A stretch of 24,311 nt of DNA, from the IMG/VR virus record IMGVR_UViG_3300023172_002559, positions 1 to 24,311 of that record. One strand, given 5' to 3'. Below the pieces are notes generated by a model. The model was not told the DNA's origin. It worked only from the letters and a program-made list of their open reading frames with translations, and did not search any database. A program made the translations under genes and the position numbers. How positions within the stretch are numbered: the first letter of the stretch is position 1; each line of letters begins with the position of its first letter. Positions 723 through 22,006 of the stretch are shown here, one piece after another. This DNA is from a virus.

Positions 723-864
723 CTCTTACGTGCCTTACGTTTGTTGTTGTCTTTAGACTACCACAGTTCTTACAGTAGTGTATTGTAACACAATATGTAT
801 GCGTGTCAACACTAATATAATCTGTGTGTTTTTCGGGTATTACGTTTTTACAGCAGCCGTACAT
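700..864 (-). CDS. Small Cys-rich (zinc-ribbon-like) protein overlapping two genes
   Basis: This 54-codon ORF begins inside the 3' end of the carbamoyltransferase gene and ends inside the 5' end of the helicase gene. It starts MYGCCKN and carries HYCKNCGSL at residues 29-37, so it has a CC pair, a further Cys at 25 and a CxxC, a pattern like a small zinc ribbon. A GGAG ribosome-binding site sits 7 nt before the ATG. It fills the otherwise empty 117-nt gap completely without a stop. Function is unknown. The main doubt is that the helicase promoter lies within it, so the ORF could be fortuitous; the well-placed Shine-Dalgarno and the Cys pattern argue that it is real. Confidence 0.5.
   Translation of the reverse strand: MYGCCKNVIPEKHTDYISVDTHTYCVTIHYCKNCGSLKTTTNVRHVRDGNKTEH
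782..809 (-). promoter_or_regulatory. Sigma70-like promoter for helicase gp41
   Basis: On the minus strand, TTGACA (809-804) is followed by a 16-nt spacer and TACAAT (787-782). The -35 is a perfect consensus and the -10 matches 5 of 6. The helicase ATG is 60 nt downstream. A 6-bp inverted repeat, TATTGT-AAC-ACAATA (781-795), overlaps the -10 and could be an operator, although this is speculative. Confidence 0.55.
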
Positions 865-2345
865 ACTTTTACTCCATAATGCTGTTCAAATGCCTGTGCA
901 TCTTCTACTGTATTAACTATCGGTTTTCCTTTGATATTTAAACTGGTGTTTAACAGTATAGGGCAGCCTGTTTCTTCGTACCAACGCTCTAACAGTTTTC
1001 TAAAGCCCACGCTTTGATCTGCAGAAACTGTCTGTACCCTAGAGGTGCCGTCCCCGTGGATGATTGCAGGTAGTCCAGGATCCGTGCAAGTTGAAGTGTA
1101 TTGCATAAAGGGTCCTGTGGGTCCGGAGAAATAAGTGGAGGCGTGCTCTTCAAGTACGGCTGGAGCAAACGGTCTAAACTTTTGTCTGCGCTTGATTTCA
1201 TTGACTCGGTCTTTGATGTCTGTGCCTCGGGGGTCTGCAAGTAAGGAGCGGTGTCCAAAAGCTCTGGGCCCGAATTCTGCCCTACCGTTGGCCACACCAA
1301 CAATACCAGTAGTAAGTAGTTCTTGTAATGCTTCTTCAACTGGATAATCTCCTTCAATGTTATACCCTGTGTACATATGCTGCATGGGCATAAACTGTTT
1401 TTTATGGGCTAATACAGCACCTATACTAGACCCTGCATCTCCCGGGTTAGGCATTATGTGTACGTTGTCCCAATCACTAGTAAGTAGTCCGTTGGCCGAA
1501 CAATTTAGTGCACACCCTCCCATGAACACGAGATTAGAACTCGTACCTTGCCACTTGGTCCAGTTGCTGATTATCTTGAGTATATACTGATAAACTGCCT
1601 GGGTGGCAGCAGCAATGTCAAAGTAGTCTTGTTCGGTGGTAAGATCGGGTCGCCACCACGTGCACCCCCTATGCAGATTGTGTTTTAACTTGATACAGGG
1701 CTTGTCGTTGAATGTGTTTAATAGGTTGTCTTCTGGCGGCAAATAGAAAAAGTCAGTGAGGATATCGTTGAATAATCTGTGAGGGTCACCATATGCAGCC
1801 ATACCCATGAGGATATATTCGTCCTCTTGTGGCTTAAGACCTATTCTTTGCGTGATTGCCGAGTACCATAGGCCCACGGAGTGTGGGTATTGTTGTGAAT
1901 ATATTCTCCTGAGCCCTTTTTCTTCGTCCGCATTCCAGATAGTGAGTGTATCAAATTCTCCAATGCTGTCGCAAACAATAACGCTGGCTTCTGTAAAATC
2001 ACTAGTATAAAAGCCGGCAGCAGCATGGGCAAGATGATGATCAGTATACCTAATAGGAGCATGTATCCCATAAGATCCAAGATACTTACGAATATTGTTT
2101 TCACCCAACCGAAGTCCTTGGCCTGCTCTAAGTTGTCTAAGAGTTTTGATAAAGGGTCTTTCATACCAAATAACTTCATCAGGTTCTCCCCATTGTTTTG
2201 CATACTCTATTAATTTATCATTTAAATGTGCATCGTTTTTTACGCCACTGAAGCGTTCACTGTGACTTGCAAACTCTAATCCGTCATCTGTAAACACCGC
2301 TAATGCAGCATCGTGACTGTTAGCACTTATACCCCAAGTAATCAT
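840..2345 (-). CDS. Carbamoyltransferase, NodU/TobZ family
   Basis: The 501-aa protein belongs to the family that transfers a carbamoyl group from carbamoyl-phosphate, via carbamoyl-AMP, to a hydroxyl of a sugar or antibiotic. The N-terminal Kae1-like domain has DHHLAH at 102-107 (metal-binding His), a GGCALNCSANG loop at 276-286 and PNPGDAGSSIGA at 299-310. The C-terminal part has GRAEFGPRAFGHRSLLADPR at 354-373 and LNTSLNIKGKPIVNT at 465-479, both family signatures. Its start overlaps the stop of the tiny upstream gene by 4 nt (ATGA), which implies translational coupling. NodU-type proteins are usually 530-600 aa, so this one is slightly compact but all motifs are present. The substrate is unknown; a glycan built by the sugar genes in this window is a reasonable guess. 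Confidence 0.92.
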   Translation of the reverse strand: MITWGISANSHDAALAVFTDDGLEFASHSERFSGVKNDAHLNDKLIEYAKQWGEPDEVIWYERPFIKTLRQLRAGQGLRLGENNIRKYLGSYGIHAPIRYTDHHLAHAAAGFYTSDFTEASVIVCDSIGEFDTLTIWNADEEKGLRRIYSQQYPHSVGLWYSAITQRIGLKPQEDEYILMGMAAYGDPHRLFNDILTDFFYLPPEDNLLNTFNDKPCIKLKHNLHRGCTWWRPDLTTEQDYFDIAAATQAVYQYILKIISNWTKWQGTSSNLVFMGGCALNCSANGLLTSDWDNVHIMPNPGDAGSSIGAVLAHKKQFMPMQHMYTGYNIEGDYPVEEALQELLTTGIVGVANGRAEFGPRAFGHRSLLADPRGTDIKDRVNEIKRRQKFRPFAPAVLEEHASTYFSGPTGPFMQYTSTCTDPGLPAIIHGDGTSRVQTVSADQSVGFRKLLERWYEETGCPILLNTSLNIKGKPIVNTVEDAQAFEQHYGVKVCTAAVKT

Positions 2346-5273: not shown

Positions 5274-5642
5274 ATGTTATTAAAAGAAATAGAACAACAA
5301 TATCCATATATTAGTGTAGTTGCATACGGCGGCAATGAGTACGTAGGTATTATAACAAATCAAGATCAATATGTTACAACAATGTATGTTTATACAGCAT
5401 TAAAGACTGATGATCATAAAAAACTACTTATTGATCTTGGAGAAATATGGTGGTGGGAATCTAATAGAATGATTCCTATAAACATTTTTTTAAAAAAAGA
5501 AATAGAACCGTTATCTTATAGTATGACTACTTTAAATAGTAAAACTGTAAAGTTAGTTATTGGTCCTTGTGTAAATATTAATAATCTAAGTATAAAAAGA
5601 GTAAAACGTAAAAGTGTTCAACTTGTTAAGAAGCCTCGCTAA
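5274..5642 (+). CDS. Conserved phage protein of unknown function (122 aa)
   Basis: This is one of only two genes on the plus strand. It starts MLLKEIEQQYPYISVVAYGGNEYVG-like, has a compact core with WWWESNR at about 60-66 and RMIPINIFLKK, and ends in a strongly basic tail (KRVKRKSVQLVKKPR). The basic tail suggests contact with nucleic acid. The start is separated from a divergent minus-strand gene by 34 nt, and the 3' end overlaps the convergent DnaE-like gene by 17 nt. I recall similar ORFs in T4-like cyanophages, but no function. No clear Shine-Dalgarno precedes the ATG. Confidence 0.75.
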   Translation: MLLKEIEQQYPYISVVAYGGNEYVGIITNQDQYVTTMYVYTALKTDDHKKLLIDLGEIWWWESNRMIPINIFLKKEIEPLSYSMTTLNSKTVKLVIGPCVNINNLSIKRVKRKSVQLVKKPR

Positions 5643-6192
5643 GTTGTTCACACACTAGATTCATATGCACTACAACACTTACAGCATATGCAATAGCGTG
5701 TGCTTTCTTAAAATAATAACTTCCGTCAGTGGGTGCGACCCACACATTTTCTAATATCGTTTGCCAAGTTTCGTTGACAAGATGGCGTTTGGCAGGCCGA
5801 ATCATCGCTAACACTGCTGCTAACTGCTCTACACTCTGAGGCTTTGTTGTGCGGAGTATATCTCCGTGACCGGAGATATGAAAGATAAGATCTGTGAAAT
5901 CGTTGTGTAATAGTAAGTCCCATTGTGGTTCACTTTCCATTAGTGTGTGTAAGTGTGCTTCATCTCGAACATCATTATAGATGTTAACATTAAGAAAGTC
6001 TAGTTTGAAGTAACCTCTATCTTCTGCTGTTTTATAATCAATAGTAGCAAGATTGTCCACAGGATTGTGTGGACACTCGGTTACATACACACCAGTGTTG
6101 TGCTTCTTTCCTGTATCAAGTTTTGCCACACGGTGTTGTATCTTAGATAAGATAACACTGCGATCAGCAAAGTCGATATCAATATCAGGCAT
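5626..6192 (-). CDS. Compact DNA polymerase III alpha (DnaE)-like protein
   Basis: At 188 aa this is tiny beside DnaE (about 1,160 aa), yet it keeps recognisable C-family polymerase motifs. Residues 2-8 are PDIDIDF, matching the PDFDVDF palm motif with its catalytic Asp residues. Residues 63-68 are KLDFLN, matching the KFDFLG motif that supplies the third Asp (D65 here). Residues 162-170 are KKAHAIAYA, matching the KSHAxAYA motif. The PHP, thumb, beta-binding and OB regions are absent. It may be a degenerate or repurposed polymerase core. Its ATG overlaps the stop of the nucleotidyltransferase gene (TAATG). I recall related ORFs in cyanophages without known function; polymerase activity is not established. 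Confidence 0.7.
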   Translation of the reverse strand: MPDIDIDFADRSVILSKIQHRVAKLDTGKKHNTGVYVTECPHNPVDNLATIDYKTAEDRGYFKLDFLNVNIYNDVRDEAHLHTLMESEPQWDLLLHNDFTDLIFHISGHGDILRTTKPQSVEQLAAVLAMIRPAKRHLVNETWQTILENVWVAPTDGSYYFKKAHAIAYAVSVVVHMNLVCEQLSEAS

Positions 6193-7697: not shown

Positions 7698-8157
7698 CTT
7701 TTTCGTAACCGTGTTCTCTAGCCAGTTCTTTGATTTCTTTTTTTGTAGATATTCTAGCAAGTGTTTCGACCTCGTCCATTTTCATATTTGGATATATTTG
7801 TGACAATAACTTTACTGCTTTGCTGCTGTCGTCTTTTTTCTTTTTAAGTCCAATCCAAGGATGAAATTCTTTTTTTCCTGTGTTGCCAGCAACACATAAT
7901 AGTTGCCATTGAAGTTTTATGTGATTAGTACCACCTAACACATTCCAGTTTTTGTTATAGTATTCATTAACTTTAAACACAGCCAATGCTTGTTTATCAT
8001 AGCTGCCTTTGACACTGCTTATATATCGATTTAGATTCCACAAGTCTCCTTTGATATCTTTCTTACCATCTTCACCAGCAGCATCATACAGCTCTTTGAA
8101 GCCCATGTCTATGCTTGGAATAAGTTCCTTGAATAAGTCTAGTTCCTTGTTTGCCAC
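7687..8157 (-). CDS. Conserved phage protein of unknown function (156 aa)
   Basis: The start is a GTG at 8157 that overlaps the kdsB stop by 19 nt; the next in-frame ATG would remove a conserved-looking N-terminus (ELDLFKELIPSIDMGFKEL). The centre has LWNLNRYISSVKGS and NEYYNKNWNVLGG, then LLCVAGNTGKKEFHPWIGLKKKK. The C-terminus is helical and charged. I recall close relatives in T4-like cyanophages, where the function is not known. The density of Trp, Tyr and Lys would suit a nucleic-acid-associated protein, but nothing diagnostic is visible. Confidence 0.7.
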   Translation of the reverse strand: MANKELDLFKELIPSIDMGFKELYDAAGEDGKKDIKGDLWNLNRYISSVKGSYDKQALAVFKVNEYYNKNWNVLGGTNHIKLQWQLLCVAGNTGKKEFHPWIGLKKKKDDSSKAVKLLSQIYPNMKMDEVETLARISTKKEIKELAREHGYEKVDI

Positions 8158-8804
8158 TTTTCTAAATCCTCTGGCGTGTTAATCTCAATACCGTCAAACT
8201 CAACTTCTACTACACCGATCTTGATACCGTTTTGTATCCAACGTAGTTGCTCTAGTTTTTCAATATCCTCTTCTACAAACTTTCTACTGGTAGTGTACAT
8301 TGCTTTGGCTTCTCTGTTGTAGCCATACACACCCAAGTGGTGATCACCGTATGTGAGACTTGCACGTAAGAACCAATGTGCTCTACCTCTGCTGTGTATC
8401 ATTTTAACACTGTTTGGATCATTTCGCAAGTTAAAATCCATCGGTGTATATGCTGTTGCTACATCACTTCGTTGTAGTTCGCCTTCAACTGCACGTATAA
8501 TACTTTCTGTTATATCTGGCATATCGCCTTGTACATTTATATATCTATCATATTGTAACACTTCGTCAATAACTTGCATACAGCGTTCTGTGCCATTTTC
8601 TGCCTCACGTGTCATGAGACATCTATTGGCACCCATATAGTTGTAAATGTCTTGATGATCAGTTAGCACATAAGTATCAAGGCCTGTAGCAGCACACTTG
8701 TTGTAAACGTGTTCCACCAATGGCACACCTTTTAGTATTGTCATCATCTTACCAGGAAAACGTGTGCTTGCATATCGTGCAGGTATTAGTATTGCCGTTG
8801 TCAT
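8139..8804 (-). CDS. kdsB: CMP-Kdo synthetase (3-deoxy-manno-octulosonate cytidylyltransferase)
   Basis: The enzyme activates Kdo with CTP to give CMP-Kdo, the donor for lipopolysaccharide inner core and Kdo-containing capsules. The N-terminus has IPARYASTRFPGK (7-19), the CTP-binding signature of KdsB. Later segments NVQGDMPDI, HLGVYGYNREA and the end INTPEDLEKWQ match the NxQGDxPxI, HxGxYxY and NTPEDL motifs of the family. At 221 aa it is a little shorter than E. coli KdsB (248 aa). A good ribosome-binding site (AAAGG, 6 nt before ATG) is present. It follows the PP-loop gene by 11 nt, and kdsA is just upstream of that, so the three form one operon. Confidence 0.92.
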   Translation of the reverse strand: MTTAILIPARYASTRFPGKMMTILKGVPLVEHVYNKCAATGLDTYVLTDHQDIYNYMGANRCLMTREAENGTERCMQVIDEVLQYDRYINVQGDMPDITESIIRAVEGELQRSDVATAYTPMDFNLRNDPNSVKMIHSRGRAHWFLRASLTYGDHHLGVYGYNREAKAMYTTSRKFVEEDIEKLEQLRWIQNGIKIGVVEVEFDGIEINTPEDLEKWQTRN

Positions 8805-8815
8805 TTGTTGCCTTT

Positions 8816-9466
8816 CTATAATCTACCAAATGCCCATTTTCTTTCTTCGCACCACCAACAGTTATCACAATGAGATTCAAATGTTGTTGTTGGTGTAGTA
8901 CAACTTCTTGTTTTATCAAATAAATCTTCTATGCCTAGAATACGGTATGCGGTTGCAACATCACGTTTATCATGATTTTTCATAGGTGAAAAATGTTTAC
9001 CATTTATTACGTGTGAATGTTTTTTGCTCCTATCGTCATCTAATTTGTCGTATTTTTTTGCAAGTTTGTTAAAACTATGATCTTGAGGTTTTGCAGTTAT
9101 TGCTGTTATAAATCCTTCAATACCTTCTTGGTAATGTCTACGTTTTTGTTTTTTCATAAAATCAAGTTTTTCAAAACCTGTTCCTGAAAAGTTATGTACT
9201 AAGTGTTTTCCTAACTTTATCGGATATCTTGCTATTGTATACTGTATTATATTTTTTGAAAATATTTCTTGAAAAGGTGCCTCAGATTCTAATATAGTGA
9301 ATGGAAAGATTGTTTGATTAATACTATTTTCAAAAATATATTTTGCTGTATAATAAAACAATAACGCAGAATCTGCACCACCACTTATACTAAATGCCAA
9401 GTTTTTTTTATTTCTTGGATAGTGTTCATTATAAATATCATCTAAAAATAGTACACCTGGTATCAA
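8816..9466 (-). CDS. QueC-like PP-loop ATP pyrophosphatase
   Basis: The 216-aa protein has the PP-loop SISGGADSA at 26-34, which binds ATP and releases pyrophosphate. The C-terminus carries four Cys at 189, 200, 203 and 206 in CTT...HCDNCWWCEER..AFG, matching the zinc site and CGxCxxCxxRxxAF ending of QueC, the enzyme that makes 7-cyano-7-deazaguanine. Length fits QueC (about 230 aa). However, no other deazaguanine genes (folE, queD, queE, dpdA) are in the window and it sits between kdsA and kdsB, so it may instead amidate or adenylate a sugar. The start is a TTG that overlaps the kdsA stop (TTGA). Confidence 0.75.
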   Translation of the reverse strand: MIPGVLFLDDIYNEHYPRNKKNLAFSISGGADSALLFYYTAKYIFENSINQTIFPFTILESEAPFQEIFSKNIIQYTIARYPIKLGKHLVHNFSGTGFEKLDFMKKQKRRHYQEGIEGFITAITAKPQDHSFNKLAKKYDKLDDDRSKKHSHVINGKHFSPMKNHDKRDVATAYRILGIEDLFDKTRSCTTPTTTFESHCDNCWWCEERKWAFGRL

Positions 9467-10260
9467 CGAAAACTCCGTACAGTTTGATTGATGTGATATA
9501 GTTGACGCACTGTTTCTGCAAAGTCTTCCAAGCGTAGCATATTAGGCCCATCACTTGGTGCATTATCTGGATCAGGATGTACTTCTAAGAAGAAGTTATC
9601 AACACCCATGCCAGCGGCAGCATTAGCAAGAGCTGGAACATAAGCCCTATTACCACCACTGCTGTCACCTTGGCCTCCTGGCTTCTGGACTGAGTGTGTG
9701 ACGTCAAATACCACAGGAACAGGAAAGTTGTCACGCATATACTGGATGCCAGTAAAATCAGTGACCAAAGTATTATATCCAAAACTAGTACCTCTTTCTG
9801 TTATCCAAACTTCTTTTGCACCATAGTGTGCTGTTTTACTTAGTATTCCTTTGACATCCCAAGGTGCTAGGAACTGTCCTTTTTTAACATTTATAATACA
9901 GCCACTATCACAAGCTGCTTTGATTAGATCAGTTTGTCTGCACAAAAACGCAGGTATTTGCAGCACATCAACACTGCTGGTCATTCTATTCCAGTCTTTG
10001 ATTTGATACACTTGTGACACATCATGCACATCAGTTAGTGTTTTTATTTCTAAACTTTTTTTGATTATATCAAAATGTTTTAGTGTATCTTCTAAACCAA
10101 TGCCACGTTTGCCTGTTATGCTTGTGCGATTGGCTTTGTCAAAACTTGCTTTAAAGATATATTCAATATCAAATAAATCACATACACGTTTGCATTCTTT
10201 AGCAATATCAAAACTATGTGATAAACTTTCGTGCTGACACGGTCCGGCAATAATTCTCAT
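9463..10260 (-). CDS. kdsA: Kdo-8-phosphate synthase
   Basis: The enzyme condenses phosphoenolpyruvate with arabinose-5-phosphate to form Kdo-8-phosphate. The 265-aa sequence has AGPCQHES at 5-12, FKASFDKANRTS (phosphate site), TDVHD, IPAFLCRQTDL, NVKKGQFLAPWD, ERGTSFGYNTLVTDF and FDVTHSVQKPGGQGDSSGG, all hallmarks of KdsA, and the length is close to the usual 280. The GGAG ribosome-binding site is 6 nt from the ATG, and a strong sigma70-like promoter lies just upstream. Arabinose-5-phosphate isomerase (KdsD) and Kdo-8-P phosphatase (KdsC) are not in the window. Confidence 0.95.
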   Translation of the reverse strand: MRIIAGPCQHESLSHSFDIAKECKRVCDLFDIEYIFKASFDKANRTSITGKRGIGLEDTLKHFDIIKKSLEIKTLTDVHDVSQVYQIKDWNRMTSSVDVLQIPAFLCRQTDLIKAACDSGCIINVKKGQFLAPWDVKGILSKTAHYGAKEVWITERGTSFGYNTLVTDFTGIQYMRDNFPVPVVFDVTHSVQKPGGQGDSSGGNRAYVPALANAAAGMGVDNFFLEVHPDPDNAPSDGPNMLRLEDFAETVRQLYHINQTVRSFR

Positions 10261-10261
10261 G

Positions 10262-10540
10262 TTAGTCTCCGTCTCTTATAATATAATAGAGATCCAGTGT
10301 TTTGTCAAGTTGTTTCCGCAGTGTAGGATGTGTATCTGCCAATGCAAATAGTTCTCGCCAACTGTCGTATCCTAAATATCCTTGTGCTTTTGCTACGCCC
10401 TCTGCATCTCCACCTATGATCCATCTTCCTGGATAAATGCTTTTTTTAGGCTCATCTCTAAACCGTGCATAAACTACACCTTGAGCTCTCTCATATATAA
10501 GAGCTTCGCCTGCTAGGTCTTCATTTTTTGGTCTAAGCAT
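10262..10540 (-). CDS. Small conserved phage protein (92 aa), unknown function
   Basis: The start MLRPKNEDLAGEALIYERAQ is an ATG at 10540 that overlaps the upstream stop by 8 nt; a longer frame reaches 10597 but lies inside the dehydrogenase gene. The centre has VVYARFRDEPKKSIYPGRWIIGG and the end is helical (TLRKQLDKTLDLYYIIRD). It looks like a compact alpha/beta protein. I know of no function. The kdsA promoter lies within its 3' end. Confidence 0.65.
   Translation of the reverse strand: MLRPKNEDLAGEALIYERAQGVVYARFRDEPKKSIYPGRWIIGGDAEGVAKAQGYLGYDSWRELFALADTHPTLRKQLDKTLDLYYIIRDGD
10280..10308 (-). promoter_or_regulatory. Strong sigma70-like promoter for kdsA
   Basis: TTGACA (10308-10303), a 17-nt spacer and TATATT (10285-10280) lie on the minus strand, 20 nt before the kdsA ATG. 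The -35 is perfect and the -10 matches 5 of 6. The resulting leader would be about 12 nt and would still contain the GGAG ribosome-binding site. Confidence 0.65.
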
Positions 10541-11327
10541 CACGCATTCCGTTAAACACTGTTTTTGTAAACTGTTGATTATCGTTATCAATATCACCGA
10601 TTAAGTTGTATGGTAAATCCAAGTTTTTCAACAGTGTGTTAAAAGCCTTTACATCTTTGGGCAAACACATGCCACTGTATCCACGCAACTGTTTATTAAC
10701 ATCTAAATACAAATCGTTAGTCTTACCTGTTGTTACATATGCATCTTTTATTTTACTGTAATCACATTCAAACTGCTCTGCAACTTCGTAAAAAATATTT
10801 GCAAAAACAATACGCAATGCAGCATACGTGTTGTTATAATATTTAAGTATTTCAGCTTCTGTAGGTGATAGTTGTTTTGTATTTTTTGGCAAGTGTCCAT
10901 GTGCTTCAACAATCTTTTTGTATACATACGGATCGTTTGTGCCCACAGCCAATAGTTCGTGATTGTTAATAAAGTCGTCGGCTGCACAGCGTTCACGTAA
11001 AAACTCTGGAGCAAAACAGATACGCAAATCTGCATATCTTGCAATCATAGATTCTGTAAATCCAACACTAACTGTGCTGCGAATGCAAACAATTCCTTTA
11101 TAATCAAGACTGCTTAAATCGTCAACTACTTGTTCTACAATTTCTGTGTCACAATCATTTTCTAGATTTGGTGTTGGTACACAAACAAAAACTATTTCTG
11201 TATCTAATACATCTTTGATTTCTGTATCAAACTTAATATCGTGCGTGATAACTTGATGTTGTAGTAACGTAAAACCAGCACTGTTTGCACTGCCCACAAC
11301 ACCCATTCCTATGATTCCTAGTTTCAT
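10533..11327 (-). CDS. UDP-glucose/nucleotide-sugar dehydrogenase, short form
   Basis: The NAD-dependent enzyme oxidises a UDP-sugar (usually UDP-glucose to UDP-glucuronate). The N-terminus has GIIGMGVVGSA (4-14), an NAD-binding GxGxxG. VCVPTP, RSTVSVGFTE, CFAPEFLRER and GYSGMCLPKDVKAF (216-229, catalytic Cys221) are classic family motifs. Family members are usually 390-450 aa, while this one is 264 and ends 43 residues after the catalytic Cys, so the C-terminal UDP-binding domain is missing. It directly precedes an SDR gene upstream in the same operon, which would use or make the same sugars. Activity without the third domain is uncertain. Confidence 0.88.
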   Translation of the reverse strand: MKLGIIGMGVVGSANSAGFTLLQHQVITHDIKFDTEIKDVLDTEIVFVCVPTPNLENDCDTEIVEQVVDDLSSLDYKGIVCIRSTVSVGFTESMIARYADLRICFAPEFLRERCAADDFINNHELLAVGTNDPYVYKKIVEAHGHLPKNTKQLSPTEAEILKYYNNTYAALRIVFANIFYEVAEQFECDYSKIKDAYVTTGKTNDLYLDVNKQLRGYSGMCLPKDVKAFNTLLKNLDLPYNLIGDIDNDNQQFTKTVFNGMRDA

Positions 11328-12187
11328 AATAAACTTTCCACTGTTTTCTTTAATCCTTCTTCCAAAGGCGTATAATCTGTAAATCCTGTTAGTGTTTGAA
11401 CAAGAGTAGTATCAGGACATCTACGAGTAGCACTACCTTTAAGTCCAGGCAAGATTTCTAATCTATCTGGGTTAATGCCCATGTAACCCATTATCATTTT
11501 TGCAACTACTGAAATACTTATTTCATTGTCGTTACCGACATTTACGGTTTTGTTACTGACATTATTTACAAGCATGTCTGTCATAGTAACAGCATCATTT
11601 ACATAACAAAAACTGCGTGTGTCATTGCCGTTGATATAGTACAATCCGTTTTTGCATCTTTCAATAAACTCGTTTACAAAATGATCAGTTTGTCCTGGAC
11701 CGTACACATTAAAGTAACGAATAATCAAATAGTCAAGTCCACTGTTTGCAACTAGATTCTCTCCTAGTGCTTTTGGAATACTGTAACTCCAACGAGGATT
11801 GGTAATATCGTTGTACATAATAGGCACTGCTTCATCTGTAGGCACATGATAGTATCCGTTGTCAATAGTGCTGTTGAATATTTCACAAGTACTAGCAAAC
11901 ACAAACTTTGTGTTGGTATTTCTGTAGCGTTCAATAAGATTTACAGTGGGCAATGTGTTGTTGATTAACACATCTGTAGGATGATCGTAAAACAACCGTG
12001 TGCCATTAGTTGCAGCTAGATGCACTATTACATCAGTATCGGGCATGAGTTTTGTTGTATTTGAATCAGCTAAGTCTTCGCCTCTAATCTTTTTATCATA
12101 TGGAACAACATGTCTTTGCTGTTCTTGCAAAAACTTATAGTAATGACTGCCTATAAAACCATGCGATCCTGTAAGTAACATTTTCAT
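11324..12187 (-). CDS. NAD-dependent epimerase/dehydratase (SDR, nucleotide sugar)
   Basis: An extended short-chain dehydrogenase/reductase of 287 aa. LLTGSHGFIGSHYYKFL (4-20) contains the GxxGxxG NAD site, VHLAATNG follows, and YSIPK (135-139) is the catalytic YxxxK with STCEIF before it. NVYGPGQ and DDTRSFCYVNDAV-type segments are typical of UDP-glucose 4-epimerase, UDP-glucuronate decarboxylase and dTDP-glucose dehydratase relatives. Next to a UDP-sugar dehydrogenase, a UDP-glucuronate decarboxylase or epimerase is plausible but not distinguishable from sequence alone. The stop overlaps the next start by 4 nt. Confidence 0.88.
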   Translation of the reverse strand: MKMLLTGSHGFIGSHYYKFLQEQQRHVVPYDKKIRGEDLADSNTTKLMPDTDVIVHLAATNGTRLFYDHPTDVLINNTLPTVNLIERYRNTNTKFVFASTCEIFNSTIDNGYYHVPTDEAVPIMYNDITNPRWSYSIPKALGENLVANSGLDYLIIRYFNVYGPGQTDHFVNEFIERCKNGLYYINGNDTRSFCYVNDAVTMTDMLVNNVSNKTVNVGNDNEISISVVAKMIMGYMGINPDRLEILPGLKGSATRRCPDTTLVQTLTGFTDYTPLEEGLKKTVESLL

Positions 12188-12927
12188 TTTCTATTGTACC
12201 ATTTCTTTTTTTCAGGGCCTTTGTCGTGTGTAAAATAGTAGTTAAGTGGACAATGATTTAGCGGAGTGTGAGTATCTACATTTTTGTATTTCATGCTAGA
12301 CAGATTGAAAACATATTTTTCAAAATGACTTGCTGCTAACATACACACCTGTCCATCATACCATCTTTGTATTTGTTTTGGCTTACTATTCATTGTATAA
12401 TACATTTCGTATTTGTCAACAAAGTTGTTGTATTCCGGATGCTTTTTGTTGAATACTACATAGCCACTTTCTGCACTATAGCCAGTATCACCTAAATAAC
12501 TGTGATCAAATAATCCAACAAGTTTTTCTTTTTTCAAAGTATTGTCAATGATGCTGCCATCAAACTTGTTATGAAATATTATGTCACTGTCTATCCAAAT
12601 CAACCTATCTGCGATAATATGTTTCAGTGCATATAAAAAAGCAAAACCTTTTTTAGCAAACTTTTGTTCTTTACTGTTGTTGGTTTTAGTGCAAAAGTTT
12701 TGCCAATCGGGTTTACAAATATAGTTCCAATCATAAACTTTTATTCTGCTATCAAAGTTTGATTCAACATTTTCTGCAATAACACAAAGTTCAAAACTTG
12801 AATCAGCATATTGATAAAAAGTATCCATCATTCGTTTACCACATAAATCATAATAATCTTGATTCATTGTGGTAACGAATGTGTACTTGCGTTTCTTGGT
12901 GCCTAGTGTTTTATACTTCCGTGCCAA
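12184..12927 (-). CDS. Glycosyltransferase, GT-A fold with DxD motif
   Basis: The 247-aa protein starts at a TTG (12927) that overlaps the cupin stop by 17 nt; starting at the next ATG would delete the first beta-strand (YTFVTT). DSD at 113-115 (LIWIDSDIIF) is the metal-binding DxD of nucleotide-sugar-dependent transferases. The order of strands and the phrase FDSRIKVYDW match the plus-strand glycosyltransferase at 17839 (NDSRITILDQ), so the two are paralogues. Donor and acceptor are unknown. Confidence 0.8.
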   Translation of the reverse strand: MARKYKTLGTKKRKYTFVTTMNQDYYDLCGKRMMDTFYQYADSSFELCVIAENVESNFDSRIKVYDWNYICKPDWQNFCTKTNNSKEQKFAKKGFAFLYALKHIIADRLIWIDSDIIFHNKFDGSIIDNTLKKEKLVGLFDHSYLGDTGYSAESGYVVFNKKHPEYNNFVDKYEMYYTMNSKPKQIQRWYDGQVCMLAASHFEKYVFNLSSMKYKNVDTHTPLNHCPLNYYFTHDKGPEKKKWYNRK

Positions 12928-13255
12928 CCGATCGTCTTACAATATCGTTATGATTAAACTCTGCCCAGTATAGTTCAAACGCTACACCATCTTCAAGTCC
13001 TTCAAACTGATGAATAACACCTGGCTTGACTTGTGTAAAATCGCCTGGACCTAAAATAGTTTCATCAACTAAATCATAATCTTTCTGCCAAACACGCACA
13101 AGCATTTTACCCGACTCTACAAAGAAGCCATTCCATTTGAACCTATGTTCGTGTTCGCTACATTTATAACCTGCTTTATATTCAATACGATGAAACTCTA
13201 GTACACCGTTAGCGTGGATAAGTTCAGTCTGTCCCCAAATCTTTCCTGCTTTCAT
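12911..13255 (-). CDS. Small cupin protein
   Basis: The 114-aa single-domain cupin has motif 1 around CSEHEHRFKWNGFFVESGKM and motif 2 around PGDFTQVKPGVIHQFEG, with metal-ligand His residues at HEH and IHQF. Small cupins with this layout occur in sugar-nucleotide and mannose-6-phosphate isomerase-like roles, and this one sits between sugar genes. It is similar in kind to the cupin domain fused to a nucleotidyltransferase at 21232-21996. The substrate is not determinable. Its ATG follows the upstream stop directly (TAATG). Confidence 0.8.
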   Translation of the reverse strand: MKAGKIWGQTELIHANGVLEFHRIEYKAGYKCSEHEHRFKWNGFFVESGKMLVRVWQKDYDLVDETILGPGDFTQVKPGVIHQFEGLEDGVAFELYWAEFNHNDIVRRSVGTEV

Positions 13256-15791: not shown

Positions 15792-16957
15792 CTAGCATAT
15801 CTTTCAGTTAGTGGAATCTCTTCGTCATAATATATAAATAGATCACTATTTACTATATACTTTTTTACATGTTTAGTTGTTGGTATACTACTCAAACTTA
15901 ACACACACATTGGCATCCACTTTGTTCTCAATAATAACTTTGGTAGTTTATTCTTTTTAATATACACTATTTCAGTGGTGTTGTCAACCCAGTTGTTTAA
16001 TCTATTGTCTTTTACAAAGGTATTAATATTTTCAGAATCGTCTTTGTTATCAGTTCTAAACAAAACACTTTGTTTTTCATCACTTATAAAGTATTTAAAT
16101 GCATTATATACATTATATACTTGATTGTATTCTTCGTTATCGTCTATTAAAACTAGTATAGGAAATCTATTAAGATGTAATATAGATTCTGCTAGATTTT
16201 GAATCGTATACTGACTTGGTTTTACTAGACATTTAATATCTTCTCTTGATGCAATAACAGCAGGCAATGATGAACTAATATTATACTCTACAAAGTCTAA
16301 TCCGTATCTTCTTTTCCTATCTAGTAAATGTAATCCTGTGTACTCTTTTCCAAGTTCTTTTTCGATCAAACTTTTACTATCGTCTTTGATATTTGAAAAA
16401 AGTTGATTATTATAGCAGGTTTTGTACTCAAATTCGTTTGACAGTACATAACAGATTTGGTTGTAATAATCTAATAGTTCTTGATCTATTTCAAACGATG
16501 TGTCTTTGAACAGTTTTATAACTTGAAAAATCATATCTTCATTTAGTCTATAAAAATGCTCATGCGATCCTTTTCTATGCACATATTCTTTATGCTTGAA
16601 CTGTATGCTGTTTATCTTCATTATATCTTTTTTGCTAAAAGGAAATCTTACTTTAATCCATTTCCAGTCAGATTTTGAAGATTCGTATACCATATTAGAA
16701 TATACATCTTCTGTATCTACTATTTTAATATATTTAGAACGATCAATAGTACGCAAAGGTTGTTTGGATAAAATATCAGTAGGCATTTCTGGAAACACAC
16801 TAGACAGAATGGTTTTGCACAAGTTGTATTGCCTATCTGTAAGTGCTGTTCCTTTTGCACATTGGCGTTCTATGCTTTCTAATATTTGCTTGTTTTTATC
16901 TTCAACACCAATGTCTCTTACATAGTGAGTGAGATATTGTTCTATATATTCAAACAT
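15767..16957 (-). CDS. Large conserved-looking protein of unknown function next to uvsW (396 aa)
   Basis: I do not recognise this protein. It is helical and charged at the N-terminus, has HRKGSHEHFYRLNE at about 133-146, and a C-terminal half with alternating hydrophobic strands (ILVLIDDNEEYN, VLFRTDN, MCVLSLSSIPTT) like a RecA- or Rossmann-type domain. No Walker A or other nucleotide-binding motif is visible. Its 3' end overlaps the uvsW start by 25 nt, which is a long overlap and implies tight coupling, so a helper of UvsW or an inactive helicase-like partner is a fair guess. Codon composition is AT-rich like the neighbours. Confidence 0.65.
   Translation of the reverse strand: MFEYIEQYLTHYVRDIGVEDKNKQILESIERQCAKGTALTDRQYNLCKTILSSVFPEMPTDILSKQPLRTIDRSKYIKIVDTEDVYSNMVYESSKSDWKWIKVRFPFSKKDIMKINSIQFKHKEYVHRKGSHEHFYRLNEDMIFQVIKLFKDTSFEIDQELLDYYNQICYVLSNEFEYKTCYNNQLFSNIKDDSKSLIEKELGKEYTGLHLLDRKRRYGLDFVEYNISSSLPAVIASREDIKCLVKPSQYTIQNLAESILHLNRFPILVLIDDNEEYNQVYNVYNAFKYFISDEKQSVLFRTDNKDDSENINTFVKDNRLNNWVDNTTEIVYIKKNKLPKLLLRTKWMPMCVLSLSSIPTTKHVKKYIVNSDLFIYYDEEIPLTERYARWQHVNLS
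15959..15987 (-). promoter_or_regulatory. Sigma70-like promoter inside the gene upstream of uvsW
   Basis: TTGACA (15987-15982), a 17-nt spacer and TATATT (15964-15959) lie on the minus strand, about 170 nt before the uvsW ATG. The two hexamers and spacing are identical to those of the kdsA promoter. Because the site is inside a coding region, it could be a chance match. Confidence 0.45.
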
Positions 16958-17804
16958 TTATTTGTCCTAAAAGTCTATCTAAAGGTAATCCTGCTGATAT
17001 TTCTTCAACCGTATACTCTGTCCAAGCATAATCATTTAACCATTGTTGTCTATCAGGATAAGGAATATTTTGTAACTGTCTTACATTATTCATAGCAACT
17101 GGATATGCAAGACTGCTTGGTCCTACAAGAGCAGGAACTCCATTTATTACGCTATGTATACCAGGGTTACTGCTATAACTTACAGTAGCGTGTATTCTTT
17201 CAAAGTTCAAATCGAAATCATCATATGTATTGTCAATATGTCTAGGTTCTTGTCTGATAACATTTTTATATTGATGTTCTATTGCTTCTAATCTGCAACG
17301 AGGGTGCGGACGAAATATAATAGGCAAATCAGAAACAGTTTGGAGTGCCCATATTGTATCCATTACCCATTTGCTCATTCGAGGCATGTCTCTCCACTGA
17401 AGACTCTTTTCGTGTTGTCCGCAGATTAGTAAGTATTCGCCTTGTTTACGCCAGGGTCTTAAAAATAACCCCTGACTTTCAGCTCTACTATTATCCATAC
17501 CAGTAGGACCGAAATAAGCATCACGATTAATTCCATTTAATCCTACCTTCCAAGTTGTGCCACGTTTTATGCCACCTACTTCTAAAACAATCACAGGCTT
17601 ATCGTGTTTTTGACATGCATCCCATACTTCTTTGTTTCTTAACATACGTCCGTGAAATAACACACTCCATATTACATGTACATCAGCATCTTCTATTCCA
17701 CCTTTAATAGATGTAAATCCTTTGTTTAAAAGACTTTTTTCAAATGCATCAAATATAGGCTTGCTATTTAAAGCACCGTATTCTCTCCACAATCTAAACT
17801 TCAT
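16950..17804 (-). CDS. KpsS-like capsule polysaccharide glycosyltransferase, copy 1
   Basis: The 284-aa protein resembles the Kdo-transferase-type domain of capsule biosynthesis proteins KpsS/KpsC. RPHPRC (about 181-186) follows the helix TIWALQTVSDLPIIF, and SYSSNPGIHSVINGVPALVGP lies near 212-232, the typical donor-site loop with a nearby His. The layout is shared with the two proteins at 18648 and 19564. The ATG is 6 nt after a promoter-like -10 box and has no Shine-Dalgarno. KpsS/KpsC add beta-Kdo from CMP-Kdo, and kdsA and kdsB are in the same window; donor identity is inferred. Confidence 0.75.
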   Translation of the reverse strand: MKFRLWREYGALNSKPIFDAFEKSLLNKGFTSIKGGIEDADVHVIWSVLFHGRMLRNKEVWDACQKHDKPVIVLEVGGIKRGTTWKVGLNGINRDAYFGPTGMDNSRAESQGLFLRPWRKQGEYLLICGQHEKSLQWRDMPRMSKWVMDTIWALQTVSDLPIIFRPHPRCRLEAIEHQYKNVIRQEPRHIDNTYDDFDLNFERIHATVSYSSNPGIHSVINGVPALVGPSSLAYPVAMNNVRQLQNIPYPDRQQWLNDYAWTEYTVEEISAGLPLDRLLGQINV

Positions 17805-17839: not shown

Positions 17840-18660
17840 TGTCAATTACAGTAGTATCAACATTTCATAAACCGGTTTTAGATTTATATGGACAAAGATT
17901 TGTTGACAGTTTTAGCCAAAACATAGATAAAAATATTAAACTACTGTTGTATGCGGAAGATTGTGTTCCTGGGAGTAATGATTCTCGTATTACCATATTA
18001 GACCAAAAAACTAGTTTACCAAAACTTTTAGCATTTAAACAGCGTTGGAAAGATGTGCCAAAAGCAAACGGCAAATGTCCTCCAGAAATCAAAGCTCGTC
18101 GTCCAAGAGATTGGCACAAAGAGTTTAAATGGGATGCTATAAGATTTGCTAATAAAGTATATGCAGTATTTGATGCTGCCGAACGCTGTGATACAGATTG
18201 GATTGTGTGGATGGATGCAGATACATTTGTACACTCAGCTTGGTCATATGAAAACTTTAAATATTTCTTACCTGAAAAAACTTGGCTTGCTTATATGGGC
18301 AGGGGTAAAAAATGGCCAGAATGCGGTTTCTATGGTATCAACTTAAAAACAAAAGTTGGAAAAGAGTTTTTAAAAGAGTTTGAACATGTATACGAACATG
18401 CTGAATATGGAATATTCAGAATGGAAGAATGGCATGACAGTTATGTTTTTGATGAAGTTTTAAAAAAGATTAAAAACAAATATCCAAATGAACTGATTAA
18501 TAATATAAGTGGAAACTTGATAAACGGCGAAGGACACCCTATCATTAATAGTGATTTAGGAAAATACATTGATCACTTAAAAGGCGATAGAAAAGAAATA
18601 GGCAAGAGTAATAAACCAAAAGATCTTATTGTAAAACGCAAAGAAGCCTATTGGCAATAG
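17839..18660 (+). CDS. Glycosyltransferase with DxD motif, plus strand
   Basis: The 273-aa protein begins MSITVVSTFHKPVLDLYGQRF, has VWMDADTF at 124-130 with the DxD at 126-128, and later ECGFYGINLKTKVGKEF and WHDSYVF, which fit the acceptor half of a GT-A-fold transferase. It shares the N-terminal pattern and DxD position with the minus-strand protein at 12184. AAGGA is 7 nt before the ATG. It is the second of only two plus-strand genes here, facing the KpsS-like gene on one side and converging with another on the other, with a 13-nt 3' overlap. Confidence 0.82.
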   Translation: MSITVVSTFHKPVLDLYGQRFVDSFSQNIDKNIKLLLYAEDCVPGSNDSRITILDQKTSLPKLLAFKQRWKDVPKANGKCPPEIKARRPRDWHKEFKWDAIRFANKVYAVFDAAERCDTDWIVWMDADTFVHSAWSYENFKYFLPEKTWLAYMGRGKKWPECGFYGINLKTKVGKEFLKEFEHVYEHAEYGIFRMEEWHDSYVFDEVLKKIKNKYPNELINNISGNLINGEGHPIINSDLGKYIDHLKGDRKEIGKSNKPKDLIVKRKEAYWQ

Positions 18661-19577
18661 TTTCTCATATGTTTCCAGCAAGAGCCGTTTGCAAGTTCCT
18701 CGAAGTTCCAATGGAACATACTAATACGTTGTAACCAACGTTCTCTATCATACAAGTTTGGATTTTCAATCAATCTAAAATCAGTATTACTTACTTCTCT
18801 ATTTTGGCTGCTTTCAGGATCTGTTACAAACGAATGATAACCTTGTATAATAGGTCCAACTGCTGCGCTGCTATTATGATTTACAACTGCCCATGCTTTT
18901 GAAAGTTCTTCTTCTAAAGATTTTCCTTGTAAACTTATTTTGACATTAGGTAGATTTTTAAGTCTAGTTTTGTTTACGTTTAGATATATTGGTGCTTTTT
19001 TATCTCCAGGATGTGGTCTAACTAAAATAGGTCTATCGCTGTGTTGTCTAATCTTGCTTATTGTATCTAGTGCCCATTGTTCGACGTCATATCCTTTCAT
19101 GCTCCAGCCGCCTTGACGCTGAAGCATTAATATAATCCATTTACCTTGTTGTTTTGTATCTTCTATTTTTATGCCAAGATGCTTGCTTATTTGTCTCCAA
19201 CGTTTTGGATTAATATTATCATCGCAGTACAATCCTGTTTGTGGAAATACACCATTAAAACTATACCTTAAATAACCAAAAGGATTTGTTTTATCTTTAT
19301 AGTTAAACAAACTTGCATCTGCACAAGCAACAAATTTTTGTTTTTGTATTTGTGTATCTATTACAGTTTTACGTAATCTTAAATGAGGAGAGCTAATGTT
19401 GTCGTATACCCATCCTTGTATAACTCCTACATCGCAATCTTCTATAGTATTTCCTGTGTGCAGTATGCCTTGATCTCCTGCGGCATTTACTCCTTGTGCA
19501 AACTTAATAAGCAGCTCTGTTTTTTGTTTATTACTATTTCGAGCTGGAACACTATTATAATAACTAACTACTTTCAT
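18648..19577 (-). CDS. KpsS-like glycosyltransferase, copy 2
   Basis: The 309-aa protein has VRPHPGDKKAP after the helix WALDTISKIRQHSDRPIL, and VNHNSSAAVGPIIQGYHSFV further on, the same order as copy 1 (RPHP, then a Ser-rich loop before a Gly-containing turn). The N-terminal domain differs more, with GVIQGWVYD and FVACADASLF. The C-terminus has WLQRISMFHWNFEELANG, parallel to copy 1's WLNDYAWTEYTVEEISAG. It follows copy 3 with a 14-nt overlap. A role in adding Kdo or a similar sugar is inferred from family likeness. Confidence 0.72.
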   Translation of the reverse strand: MKVVSYYNSVPARNSNKQKTELLIKFAQGVNAAGDQGILHTGNTIEDCDVGVIQGWVYDNISSPHLRLRKTVIDTQIQKQKFVACADASLFNYKDKTNPFGYLRYSFNGVFPQTGLYCDDNINPKRWRQISKHLGIKIEDTKQQGKWIILMLQRQGGWSMKGYDVEQWALDTISKIRQHSDRPILVRPHPGDKKAPIYLNVNKTRLKNLPNVKISLQGKSLEEELSKAWAVVNHNSSAAVGPIIQGYHSFVTDPESSQNREVSNTDFRLIENPNLYDRERWLQRISMFHWNFEELANGSCWKHMRNYCQ

Positions 19578-20376
19578 TTACTATATTCCATGCATAACCA
19601 CTTACCATTTCCGCTGCGGTAAACTGACAATAGGAAAGATGTTTTGCAAATGCTAGTACTTCTCCTTTTGTAGGAATATGTAAACTTCTAACATCGGATA
19701 TATGTGTGTTACATAAAACTGTTGCTGCATTTGGTGCTAATGCAATAGCAGGTTTGCTCATTAATAATGCCTCTGTTGCAGCAATACTATTAAATGTTAC
19801 TAAACAAACAGCATCTTCTAATGCTTGCCATATTGTATCATTATTAACTCTGTCTTCTCTACTAGGTTTTAGCCTTACCTTAATGGGTATATTTGTATAA
19901 GTTTTAATCTGGTCGAGTGTTTCTTCCATCCATTGATTTAAATCTCTACCATAAAACTTCATTACCTTTTCACTAGGAGGACAAACCAATATATAACTAC
20001 CCCCTGTTGGTTTTGTATAACTCCAATTTAGTTTACGTAATCTGTCCATTGATCTATCTTTTATTGGACCTAGATTTTGTAATGCATTTTTTGTAATGCG
20101 ATGATATTCTTTTTTCTTGCCAGGTTGAATATAACCTGTATCTATCGCATAAAATGTTCTGCCTATTGACATACATTGTTTTAGAGCTTTTTGACTAGTG
20201 CCTCCTAAGCCTCTTATAACTAAGTCGTTATCGGTATTTTCTTCGGTTTTCCAATCACTAATGATTCCGCCAGCACCTAAAATAAAATCTCTACAATACG
20301 GATCGTAAATGTCGCCTTTTTTATCGTAGTTAAAATCACCTGGATCAGGTATAATGCTTGCAACTTTTACACCCAT
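19564..20376 (-). CDS. KpsS-like glycosyltransferase, copy 3
   Basis: The 270-aa protein has VRLKPSRED after helix WMEETLDQIKTYTNIPI, and VTFNSIAATEALLMSKPAIAL near 194-214, the same arrangement as copies 1 and 2, but the RPHP His is replaced (RLKP). An ATG at 20376 has a good ribosome-binding site (GAGG, 8 nt upstream). The reading frame stays open a further 147 nt upstream without a start codon, up to an A9 tract at the end of the preceding gene, so a frameshifted fusion is possible. Donor and acceptor are unknown. Confidence 0.72.
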   Translation of the reverse strand: MGVKVASIIPDPGDFNYDKKGDIYDPYCRDFILGAGGIISDWKTEENTDNDLVIRGLGGTSQKALKQCMSIGRTFYAIDTGYIQPGKKKEYHRITKNALQNLGPIKDRSMDRLRKLNWSYTKPTGGSYILVCPPSEKVMKFYGRDLNQWMEETLDQIKTYTNIPIKVRLKPSREDRVNNDTIWQALEDAVCLVTFNSIAATEALLMSKPAIALAPNAATVLCNTHISDVRSLHIPTKGEVLAFAKHLSYCQFTAAEMVSGYAWNIVNESS

Positions 20377-20533: not shown

Positions 20534-21254
20534 GATCTTCTAGTTCCTTGGTGAGATACAAGCGTTCTGCTTTGTAATACTCATTTGCATATTCGCAGTC
20601 TTGATAATCTTCAAACCAAGGACCACCTTCTGTGTAATGTAGTGCTTTTGGTTTACCATCGTCTGGCTCTTTGTACCAGCCAACTAGCCAGTTCCACTCG
20701 TGACTGATTGCTCCAATCTTGTCATCGTCTAACCAACTAAATCTATGAAACCATGCACCAGTTTTGTGTTCATCATTTACACACTCGGGTGTAAGAATAC
20801 TATTGTCAGGATGGCCTGCGTTAAACAAAACTGCACTACTCCAGTTTTTTCTTGGATAAATGTGCTGATCTTTTCCATCCATCTTTGTGCCAGCTTTTGG
20901 AGTGTAATCGTGTTGCGCACACATGACTGCAAACTTGTCATTTGTTTTGGCAAACAACTTTGCAACATCATCTAGGAAAATAAAATCACAATCGATAAAC
21001 AAAGCCCATCCCTCAAAGTTTGCAAGTCTAGGAACTAAGAATCTTGTAAAAGTAAATTCTGTGCTTGCAAGTGTATCTACTGCACGAGTATACATTCCAT
21101 CTCTGCGTAAGTTATGTTGTTTTAATGGTATTACTTTTACAGGCACAGATGCATGTTTCAAAATACTTGCTTTACATGCTTGAAATGCAATATCTTCTCT
21201 ACTGTCCCATCCAACATATATTCTAAGTGGTTCAATCTCTTCGCTCAATATCAT
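20514..21254 (-). CDS. Glycosyltransferase, GT-A fold, DxD motif
   Basis: The 246-aa protein begins with IYVGWDSREDIAFQACKAS, carries the metal-binding FIDCDFIFLDD (DxD at 88-90), and has HYTEGGPWFEDYQ near residue 217 where GT8-type enzymes have a catalytic-site His-containing loop. KNWSSAVLFNAGHP is typical of the acceptor half. I recall very similar proteins in T4-like cyanophages. The ATG at 21254 overlaps the upstream cupin end; a TTG at 21248 is also well placed after GGAG. The 3' end holds the A9 tract described separately. Confidence 0.85.
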   Translation of the reverse strand: MILSEEIEPLRIYVGWDSREDIAFQACKASILKHASVPVKVIPLKQHNLRRDGMYTRAVDTLASTEFTFTRFLVPRLANFEGWALFIDCDFIFLDDVAKLFAKTNDKFAVMCAQHDYTPKAGTKMDGKDQHIYPRKNWSSAVLFNAGHPDNSILTPECVNDEHKTGAWFHRFSWLDDDKIGAISHEWNWLVGWYKEPDDGKPKALHYTEGGPWFEDYQDCEYANEYYKAERLYLTKELEDQKKRSD

Positions 21255-21996: not shown

Positions 21997-22006
21997 ACGG
22001 TATTTA

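Follow-up and report, generated by a model that had tools for sequence, protein, structure and literature searches.

A viral kdsA-kdsB pair with an asparagine-type KdsB and its predicted part in CMP-Kdo supply

The kdsA-kdsB pair and the virus that carries it

The virus record IMGVR_UViG_3300023172_002559 (a complete record of 24,311 bases, analysed at full length and called the window here) carries genes for the synthesis and activation of 3-deoxy-D-manno-octulosonic acid (Kdo). Kdo is one of the core surface sugars of Gram-negative bacteria. The locus consists of three open reading frames (ORFs) on the minus strand, kdsB, a PP-loop gene and kdsA:

8139-8804, minus strand: kdsB-like gene, 221 aa, predicted cytidine monophosphate-Kdo (CMP-Kdo) synthetase from a viral subfamily in which Asn209 replaces a Mg-binding Asp; its best family matches are KdsB models
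8816-9466, minus strand: gene for a PP-loop ATPase, distantly QueC-like, 216 aa, TTG start; variable cargo between kdsA and kdsB
9463-10260, minus strand: kdsA, 3-deoxy-8-phosphooctulonate (Kdo-8-P) synthase, 265 aa, recognised by family models, PDB relatives and conserved residues

An earlier reading of the DNA letters alone (the sequence-only reading) had seen here a phage-encoded pair for Kdo synthesis and activation, and the family matches, the conserved pairing and the KdsA motifs bear this out. The window corresponds, with 99.9% identity, to positions 82661-58351 of a longer viral contig (87,751 bases). The products of this contig include portal, major head protein, terminase, tail sheath, tail tube, and gp32-like and UvsX-like proteins; therefore, the kds genes belong to a myovirus whose replication genes are of the T4 type. 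Among named phages, the UvsW protein of the window is nearest to those of Sinorhizobium phage Phosso (55.7%), Agrobacterium phage Atu_ph07 and PA5oct-type Pseudomonas phages, all of them jumbo phages, and related contigs reach 330-383 kb. "Jumbo-type" is used below as a clade label taken from the size of these relatives, not as a measured genome size of the window's virus. The habitat of this virus is presumably marine.

The KdsA protein scored over the cut-offs of two curated equivalog models, NF003543 (350.6 bits, cut-off 242) and TIGR01362 (335.4, cut-off 314), and under that of NF009109 (238.2 vs 457). Residues 2-254 of its 265 align to solved KdsA, and the KdsA relatives in PDB were found at E 7e-80. 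All 18 aligned viral sequences share C8, N44, R45, K127, H189, E226 and D237, the KANR motif is present, and the letters at the catalytic and metal sites match those of the aligned PDB KdsAs. We assume the usual roles of the individual residues at these sites, and by the C8 rule the enzyme is presumably of the metal-dependent type. A scan of viral contigs gave 295 KdsA-encoding stretches, and the best 80 of the 295 were used. Of 80 full-length distinct viral KdsAs (a further 7 were partial), 77 passed all six motif checks. The three exceptions retain the catalytic Glu and Asp: two differ only by the spelling of the search pattern, and one has SDGSN for SDGPN. The description of KdsA as near-canonical agrees with the two equivalog cut-offs and with the catalytic motifs kept in the 18 aligned sequences. 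The identity of the viral KdsA as a Kdo-8-P synthase, with predicted activity, is well supported by its sequence.

To describe the pairing, we pooled the kdsA scan with a scan for UvsW loci. This gave 92 loci with both genes, the window's record included and some contigs counted twice. In 76 of them the two genes overlap or abut, in 3 they are 2-60 nt apart, and in 13 they lie wider apart; counted by distinct DNA (n = 74), the numbers are 61, 3 and 10. The pairing holds both in jumbo-type and in other genomic contexts. The wider gaps hold varied cargo, namely the PP-loop gene (the window, L002 and L003), a uroporphyrinogen decarboxylase gene (L052 and L094), a gene for an OmpA-like protein (L048) and others; the Pfam match was made for the cargo of L094 and L048. 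The conserved unit is kdsA-kdsB, without the PP-loop gene. The ratio of nonsynonymous to synonymous substitution rates was 0.09-0.22 for kdsA and 0.06-0.19 for kdsB, taken over the unsaturated pairs (16 of 18 and 15 of 19, respectively), with sequences shared between pairs. Both genes are under purifying selection. The UvsW scan gave at least 80 loci, 60 of which extend into the downstream flank; 24 of the 60 carry kdsA and kdsB, one kdsA alone, three kdsB alone and 32 neither.

Insertions at these loci were also recorded. The uroporphyrinogen decarboxylase-type gene stands between kdsA and kdsB in two loci, L052 and L094 (5108-6085), and follows kdsA in L120; in L094, the one case scored, it matches PF01208 with 217 bits. 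Upstream of kdsA, relatives carry a S-adenosylmethionine synthetase gene (L006:4925-6001) or a Vut_1-family transporter gene (L034:4481-5149).

The asparagine-type KdsB

The families that scored best with the window's KdsB are KdsB models, the cytidylyltransferase family PF02348 was matched over its cut-off (85.9 vs 22.6 bits), and KdsB relatives in PDB were found at E 3e-30. The protein fell under the cut-offs of all five KdsB models (score/cut-off 165.7/193, 149.8/255, 144.1/234, 140.6/281 and 116.4/155.2). The ligands of Mg-A in KdsB are two Asp residues, Asp100 and Asp235 in E. coli (PMC2901514, PMC3149649), and the passages of PMC3149649 on this site term the equivalent pair in Aquifex KdsB strictly conserved. 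The viral proteins retain the first Asp (D94); in place of the second, all 15 aligned viral KdsBs have Asn (N209). Every one of the 70 complete distinct viral KdsBs has Asn at this position (a further 7 were incomplete), and QGDMP replaces QGDEP in 71 of the 73 that are readable there. The bacterial KdsB relatives aligned to the window's protein, among the matches listed, have both Asp residues (80/80) and Glu at the Met position (80/80); these relatives were gathered with two patterns, and closer bacterial ones may have escaped them. On the viral side, the KdsBs were collected by way of the window's KdsA or UvsW and by similarity to the window's KdsB, and represent one side of viral KdsB diversity. 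Judged by these alignments, the viral KdsBs are a subfamily of their own in which a predicted metal-binding residue is altered relative to the bacterial relatives compared. To call this KdsB near-canonical, as had been done, was too strong, with five cut-offs missed and one Mg-binding Asp replaced.

Since Asn takes the place of a strictly conserved Mg-A ligand, the activity or the substrate of the viral KdsB may have changed. Q92 (in the NVQGD motif), D94, H156, Y160 and L184-E185-Q186 are invariant in the 15 aligned viral KdsBs. In GlmU, a metal ligand at the corresponding place is also Asn; because of this analogy, it is plausible that the Asn-type KdsB is active. The KdsBs of Synechococcus phage S-SCSM2R and of a 462-kb uncultured phage carry Asp and are probably separate from the Asn-type group.

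Genes around the pair

The other features of the neighbourhood are as follows:

10262-10597, minus strand: small ORF directly upstream of kdsA, conserved with kdsA, containing promoter-like hexamers
10280-10308, minus strand: promoter-like TTGACA-N17-TATATT, probably coincidental codons, as judged by upstream-region comparison and shuffles
10533-11327, minus strand: nucleotide-sugar dehydrogenase-like gene, short form (TIGR03026 133.8 bits, under the cut-off of 189.8; PF03721 and PF00984 over cut-off)
11324-12187, minus strand: NAD-dependent epimerase/dehydratase (PF01370, 118.9 bits)
12911-13255, minus strand: small cupin, recurrent kdsA neighbour in several genomic contexts (Cupin_2, 30.4 bits)
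16950-17804, minus strand: KpsS-like 1, with the predicted fold of a retaining beta-Kdo transferase, an RPHP motif for CMP and Ser at the nucleophile position, from model and motif rows
18648-19577, minus strand: KpsS-like 2, RPHP kept, QXXXD absent; 22% identity to KpsS-like 1, known from sequence, not fold
19564-20376, minus strand: KpsS-like 3, QXXXD and HP motif both absent; 18% identity to KpsS-like 1, known from sequence, not fold
21232-22041, minus strand: fusion of an HldE-like nucleotidyltransferase with a mannose-6-phosphate isomerase-type cupin (PF01467 and PF01050 over cut-off)

The PP-loop ORF overlaps kdsA by 4 nt and is separated from kdsB by 11 nt. The three ORFs and both junctions are as the sequence-only reading described them; its placing of the PP-loop gene in the Kdo pathway is not supported. 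The protein has an SGGADS motif and a C-terminal Cys cluster. With the QueC family PF06508 it scored 21.0 bits, short of the cut-off of 22; it had no match in NCBIfam, and a sequence search of PDB found no relative (best E 0.29, unrelated). The structural model, with a moderate predicted local distance difference test score (pLDDT) of 68, was used for fold class only, and the Foldseek list was headed by PP-loop enzymes. The likeness of the PP-loop protein to QueC is distant. The gene occurs in 3 of the 92 kdsA-kdsB loci, in the window (L001) and its close relatives L002 and L003 only (among L001-L081 and the 80 UvsW loci), and in 0 of the 80 UvsW loci. Homologues lie in the uvsW-to-helicase span of L169 and L170, without kdsA and kdsB, and a further one, in a 330-kb virus contig (L083), adjoins a radical SAM/SPASM-type gene (one neighbour scored; SPASM over cut-off, Radical_SAM under). 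Because the gene is rare at kdsAB and has homologues elsewhere without kdsAB, it is best read as unrelated cargo inserted between kdsA and kdsB, and a role as a Kdo-pathway enzyme was rejected on the same grounds. On the 330-kb contig, L084 holds two PP-loop genes in tandem, and L083/L084 may be a phage modification cluster.

The association counts across clade loci that follow (small ORF, cupin, KpsS-like genes) compare rows related by descent, and their p values are not true probabilities. The small ORF upstream of kdsA is present in 25/25 kdsA-positive vs 9/35 kdsA-negative UvsW loci; it had no Pfam match above cut-off and no PHROG match. A promoter of the operon's own had been proposed from TTGACA-N17-TATATT. 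The sequence is indeed present at 10308-10280 on the minus strand. It lies within this ORF, and its hexamers are codons for conserved residues of the upstream protein. Among 27 distinct upstream regions, including that of the window, at least 11 of the 12 positions are retained in 4 and 10 of 12 in 4 more. The surrounding 10 kb hold two further 11-of-12 sites, with 48 promoter-like sites in all vs 37.3 (sd 5.7) in shuffles. A dedicated promoter is therefore unsupported, given the conserved codons, the low retention and the equally good sites nearby; the element may act as a promoter in the nearest relatives. The junctions with the upstream ORF overlap in most of these loci, which suggests that kdsA is transcribed by read-through from upstream genes.

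Of 54 jumbo-type kdsA loci, 53 have the cupin gene no more than 6 kb from kdsA. In other contexts it is found at a distance of 1 kb or less in 18 of the 26 kdsA loci, and 3 of the 8 misses have fewer than 300 bases downstream. Among the UvsW loci, it is present in 24/25 with kdsA vs 16/35 without.

The window was also said to hold three KpsS-like transferases. The three ORFs exist, and one has a predicted beta-Kdo transferase fold; Pfam Capsule_synth had no match in any of them at E up to 1, and the QXXXD motif is found in none. We searched 12 virus contigs of 51-383 kb, including the 87.7-kb contig of the window's virus; 9 carry kdsA, and any may be a fragment. Across these contigs Capsule_synth gave two matches, both sub-threshold. 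The model of KpsS-like 1, made from 27 aligned sequences, has a pLDDT of 92.4, and its 28 best Foldseek rows are all retaining beta-Kdo transferases. The VIA list, which is a second look at Foldseek's matches, likewise has such enzymes in all of its 15 best rows: KpsC with Z 14.0 (root-mean-square deviation 3.7, 232 aligned), WbbB with 12.5 and KrkA with 10.8. The best non-Kdo enzyme has Z 10.2, tied with KrkA and below KpsC and WbbB. The modified GT-B fold of GT99/GT107/GT140 type was found for the predicted model of KpsS-like 1 only, and the profile of this protein gave chance-level matches only against PDB by sequence.

Retaining beta-Kdo transferases are described by two motifs, QXXXD, in which Asp is the nucleophile, and (K/R)XHP, which binds CMP (PMC10148158, PMC12887879). 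In KpsS-like 1, RXHP is present in 25/25 rows (the window's protein with 24 others selected from 87 homologues). The same 25 rows all read QH[DE][KR]S, with Gln kept and Ser in place of the nucleophile Asp. Within the window, (K/R)XHP is found in KpsS-like 1 and 2, not 3. It is plausible from the model that KpsS-like 1 is a CMP-sugar transferase; with the nucleophile Asp replaced, a standard double-displacement Kdo transferase is putative at most. KpsS-like 1, which adjoins uvsW, is present in 19/19 kdsA-positive vs 21/23 kdsA-negative loci with more than 4 kb upstream (Fisher p 0.49). KpsS-like paralogues with a full QXXXD occur elsewhere in the clade, in 8/27 kdsA-positive vs 1/23 kdsA-negative loci (p 0.028), or 8/22 vs 0/19 with an 8.5-kb upstream limit (p 0.004), which omits the sole kdsA-negative case, L137. 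A motif scan found no such paralogue among the listed ORFs of at least 130 aa in the 87.7-kb contig.

Several arrangements were seen in passing. In L076, L079 and L080, a cupin gene, kdsA, a glycosyltransferase gene and two KpsS-like genes follow one another, with no kdsB match in the locus. A NodU-type carbamoyltransferase gene (window 840-2345) lies within the replication module, flanked by primase and DnaB-like helicase, and has the same place in a number of relatives. A DNA polymerase-like fragment of 188 aa (window 5626-6192; phrog_11778, 205 bits) keeps its position in many relatives.

Proposed CMP-Kdo supply and comparison with known systems

We also determined which other steps of the pathway are encoded by the 12 virus contigs, possible fragments as they are. 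KdsC and KdsD had no match in any of them, as the sequence-only reading had noted for the window itself; in control genomes, including E. coli, KdsC was found in 11/14 and KdsD in 14/14. A WaaA-type transferase likewise had no match in these contigs (controls 3/14). With no match to KdsC or KdsD in these contigs, the virus would depend on the KdsD and KdsC of its host. The formation of CMP-Kdo is termed the rate-limiting step of lipopolysaccharide synthesis (PMC3149649).

The identity of the genes, their conserved pairing, the purifying selection and the KdsA catalytic motifs are all observed at these loci. The reading that we favour, with a probability of about 0.6, is that kdsAB is a viral module that boosts the supply of CMP-Kdo for a surface glycan, together with host KdsD and KdsC. 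KdsA would join host arabinose-5-phosphate with phosphoenolpyruvate to give Kdo-8-phosphate, host KdsC would take off the phosphate, and viral KdsB would activate Kdo with cytidine triphosphate to CMP-Kdo. The virus would then supply the aldol step and the rate-limiting activation, and the host would do the remainder. CMP-Kdo would pass to glycosyltransferases of the host and/or the phage (the KpsS-like proteins and other transferases of the cluster), which would alter a glycan on the surface of infected cells or virions. We infer the activity of the Asn-type KdsB, the role of the host, the acceptor and the benefit to the virus. The alteration may amount to masking of receptors, which sequence cannot separate from decoration of the virion.

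Several observations weigh against this reading. The KdsB scores lie under all five cut-offs and its second Mg-A ligand is Asn throughout. The Foldseek TM-score of KpsS-like 1, taken by query, is just 0.40-0.57, and its nucleophile position holds Ser. A tie of this gene to kdsAB had to be rejected, as it is present with or without the pair and shows no association. Export of the KpsM/T type, which the sequence-only reading had proposed to look for, drew a blank: an ABC2-type exporter had no match in the 12 virus contigs, possible fragments (controls 14/14). The pair is dispensable in the clade, with both genes missing from 32 of the 60 UvsW loci.

There is perhaps one chance in five that KdsA and KdsB keep the ordinary lipopolysaccharide or capsule synthesis of the host going while a long infection lasts, and that no new glycan is made. 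No steps other than the aldol and the rate-limiting one are encoded, and no WaaA-type transferase was found in the 12 virus contigs, as this explanation would have it; the position of kdsAB in a large cluster of glycosyltransferase and nucleotide-sugar genes speaks against it. Hardly less probable, and still doubtful, is that the viral KdsB has shifted to another 3-deoxy-2-ulosonic acid or nucleotide and that a different activated sugar is made from the product of KdsA. The Asn (70/70) and QGDMP (71/73) of the viral proteins, set against Asp and Glu in 80/80 bacterial ones, and the scores under the KdsB cut-offs agree with such a shift. The invariance of Q92, D94, H156, Y160 and L184-E185-Q186 across the 15 aligned KdsBs, the clear KdsA next to KdsB and the Asn that GlmU has at the corresponding metal position are against it.

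A more far-reaching proposal is speculative and, in our estimate, improbable: a virus-adapted octulosonic-acid module, in which KdsA is followed by an Asn-site KdsB that would make a different or differently tuned CMP-sugar. A dedicated cupin (12911-13255) would replace KdsD in pentose-phosphate supply or tailor the sugar, KpsS-fold transferases, most of them without the covalent nucleophile known from retaining beta-Kdo enzymes, would act by another mechanism, and the glycan would be exclusive to infected cells or virions. Finally, a single three-gene pathway, with the sugar modified (amidated, for instance) by the PP-loop ATPase, is very improbable: the 4-nt overlap and the 11-nt junction favour it, and the presence of the gene in only the window and two close relatives among the 92 loci, with homologues away from kdsAB (L169, L170) or beside a radical SAM/SPASM-type gene, argues against it.

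A phage lineage that retains a KdsA-KdsB pair by purifying selection, and in which the KdsB metal site is altered, offers a direct biochemical test of whether viruses retune sugar activation. It also points to a larger set of candidate KpsS-fold transferases. If the pair alters the surface of the infected cell, it would bear on superinfection exclusion and phage-phage competition.

Viral kdsA and kdsB have been published before. KdsA was reported in a marine virus of 179 kb whose structural genes are T4-like and which encodes KdsA and NeuA among six glycan enzymes (PMC5332604). Both kdsA and kdsB were reported in surface-water viruses (PMC10653327), kdsB in Challenger Deep viruses (PMC9529941) and kdsA in seamount-sediment viruses (PMC11018836). 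These auxiliary metabolic genes of marine viromes resemble the pair described here in that KdsA and/or KdsB occur in marine viruses, and a reading as surface modification is also given in PMC5332604 and PMC9529941. They differ in that the relevant passages of the four papers list the genes without a kdsA-kdsB overlap, an Asn-type KdsB or a cupin neighbour, the last being an association at which no search was aimed. Searches of the open-licence literature, at the level of the passages retrieved, found no description of an Asn-type viral KdsB.

Glycan clusters of jumbo phages have also been described (PMC7824862, section 3.4.10; PMC9123017). In the jumbo cyanophages of the P-SSM2 group, epimerases, cupins, nucleotidyltransferases and glycosyltransferases are clustered as in the window, with carbamoyltransferases in a second cluster, according to that section of PMC7824862. 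The main text of PMC7824862 does not name KdsA, KdsB or Kdo, and the window's UvsW is nearest to that of Phosso, Atu_ph07 and PA5oct-type phages. In S-SCSM2R, a large cyanophage, kdsA and kdsB are also neighbours, but they lie on opposite strands, and the KdsB has the ordinary Asp (VDVPEDL) and QGDQP; its kdsAB is probably a separate acquisition. KpsC (GT107), WbbB (GT99) and KrkA (GT140) share with KpsS-like 1 the predicted fold and the (K/R)XHP CMP motif, and differ from it in the QXXXD Asp, which is Ser in the viral protein, and in the lack of a link by sequence profile. The conserved viral pair, with its probable part in CMP-Kdo supply, is real; viral kdsA and kdsB were known before, and in the Asn type this virus group has a KdsB of its own.

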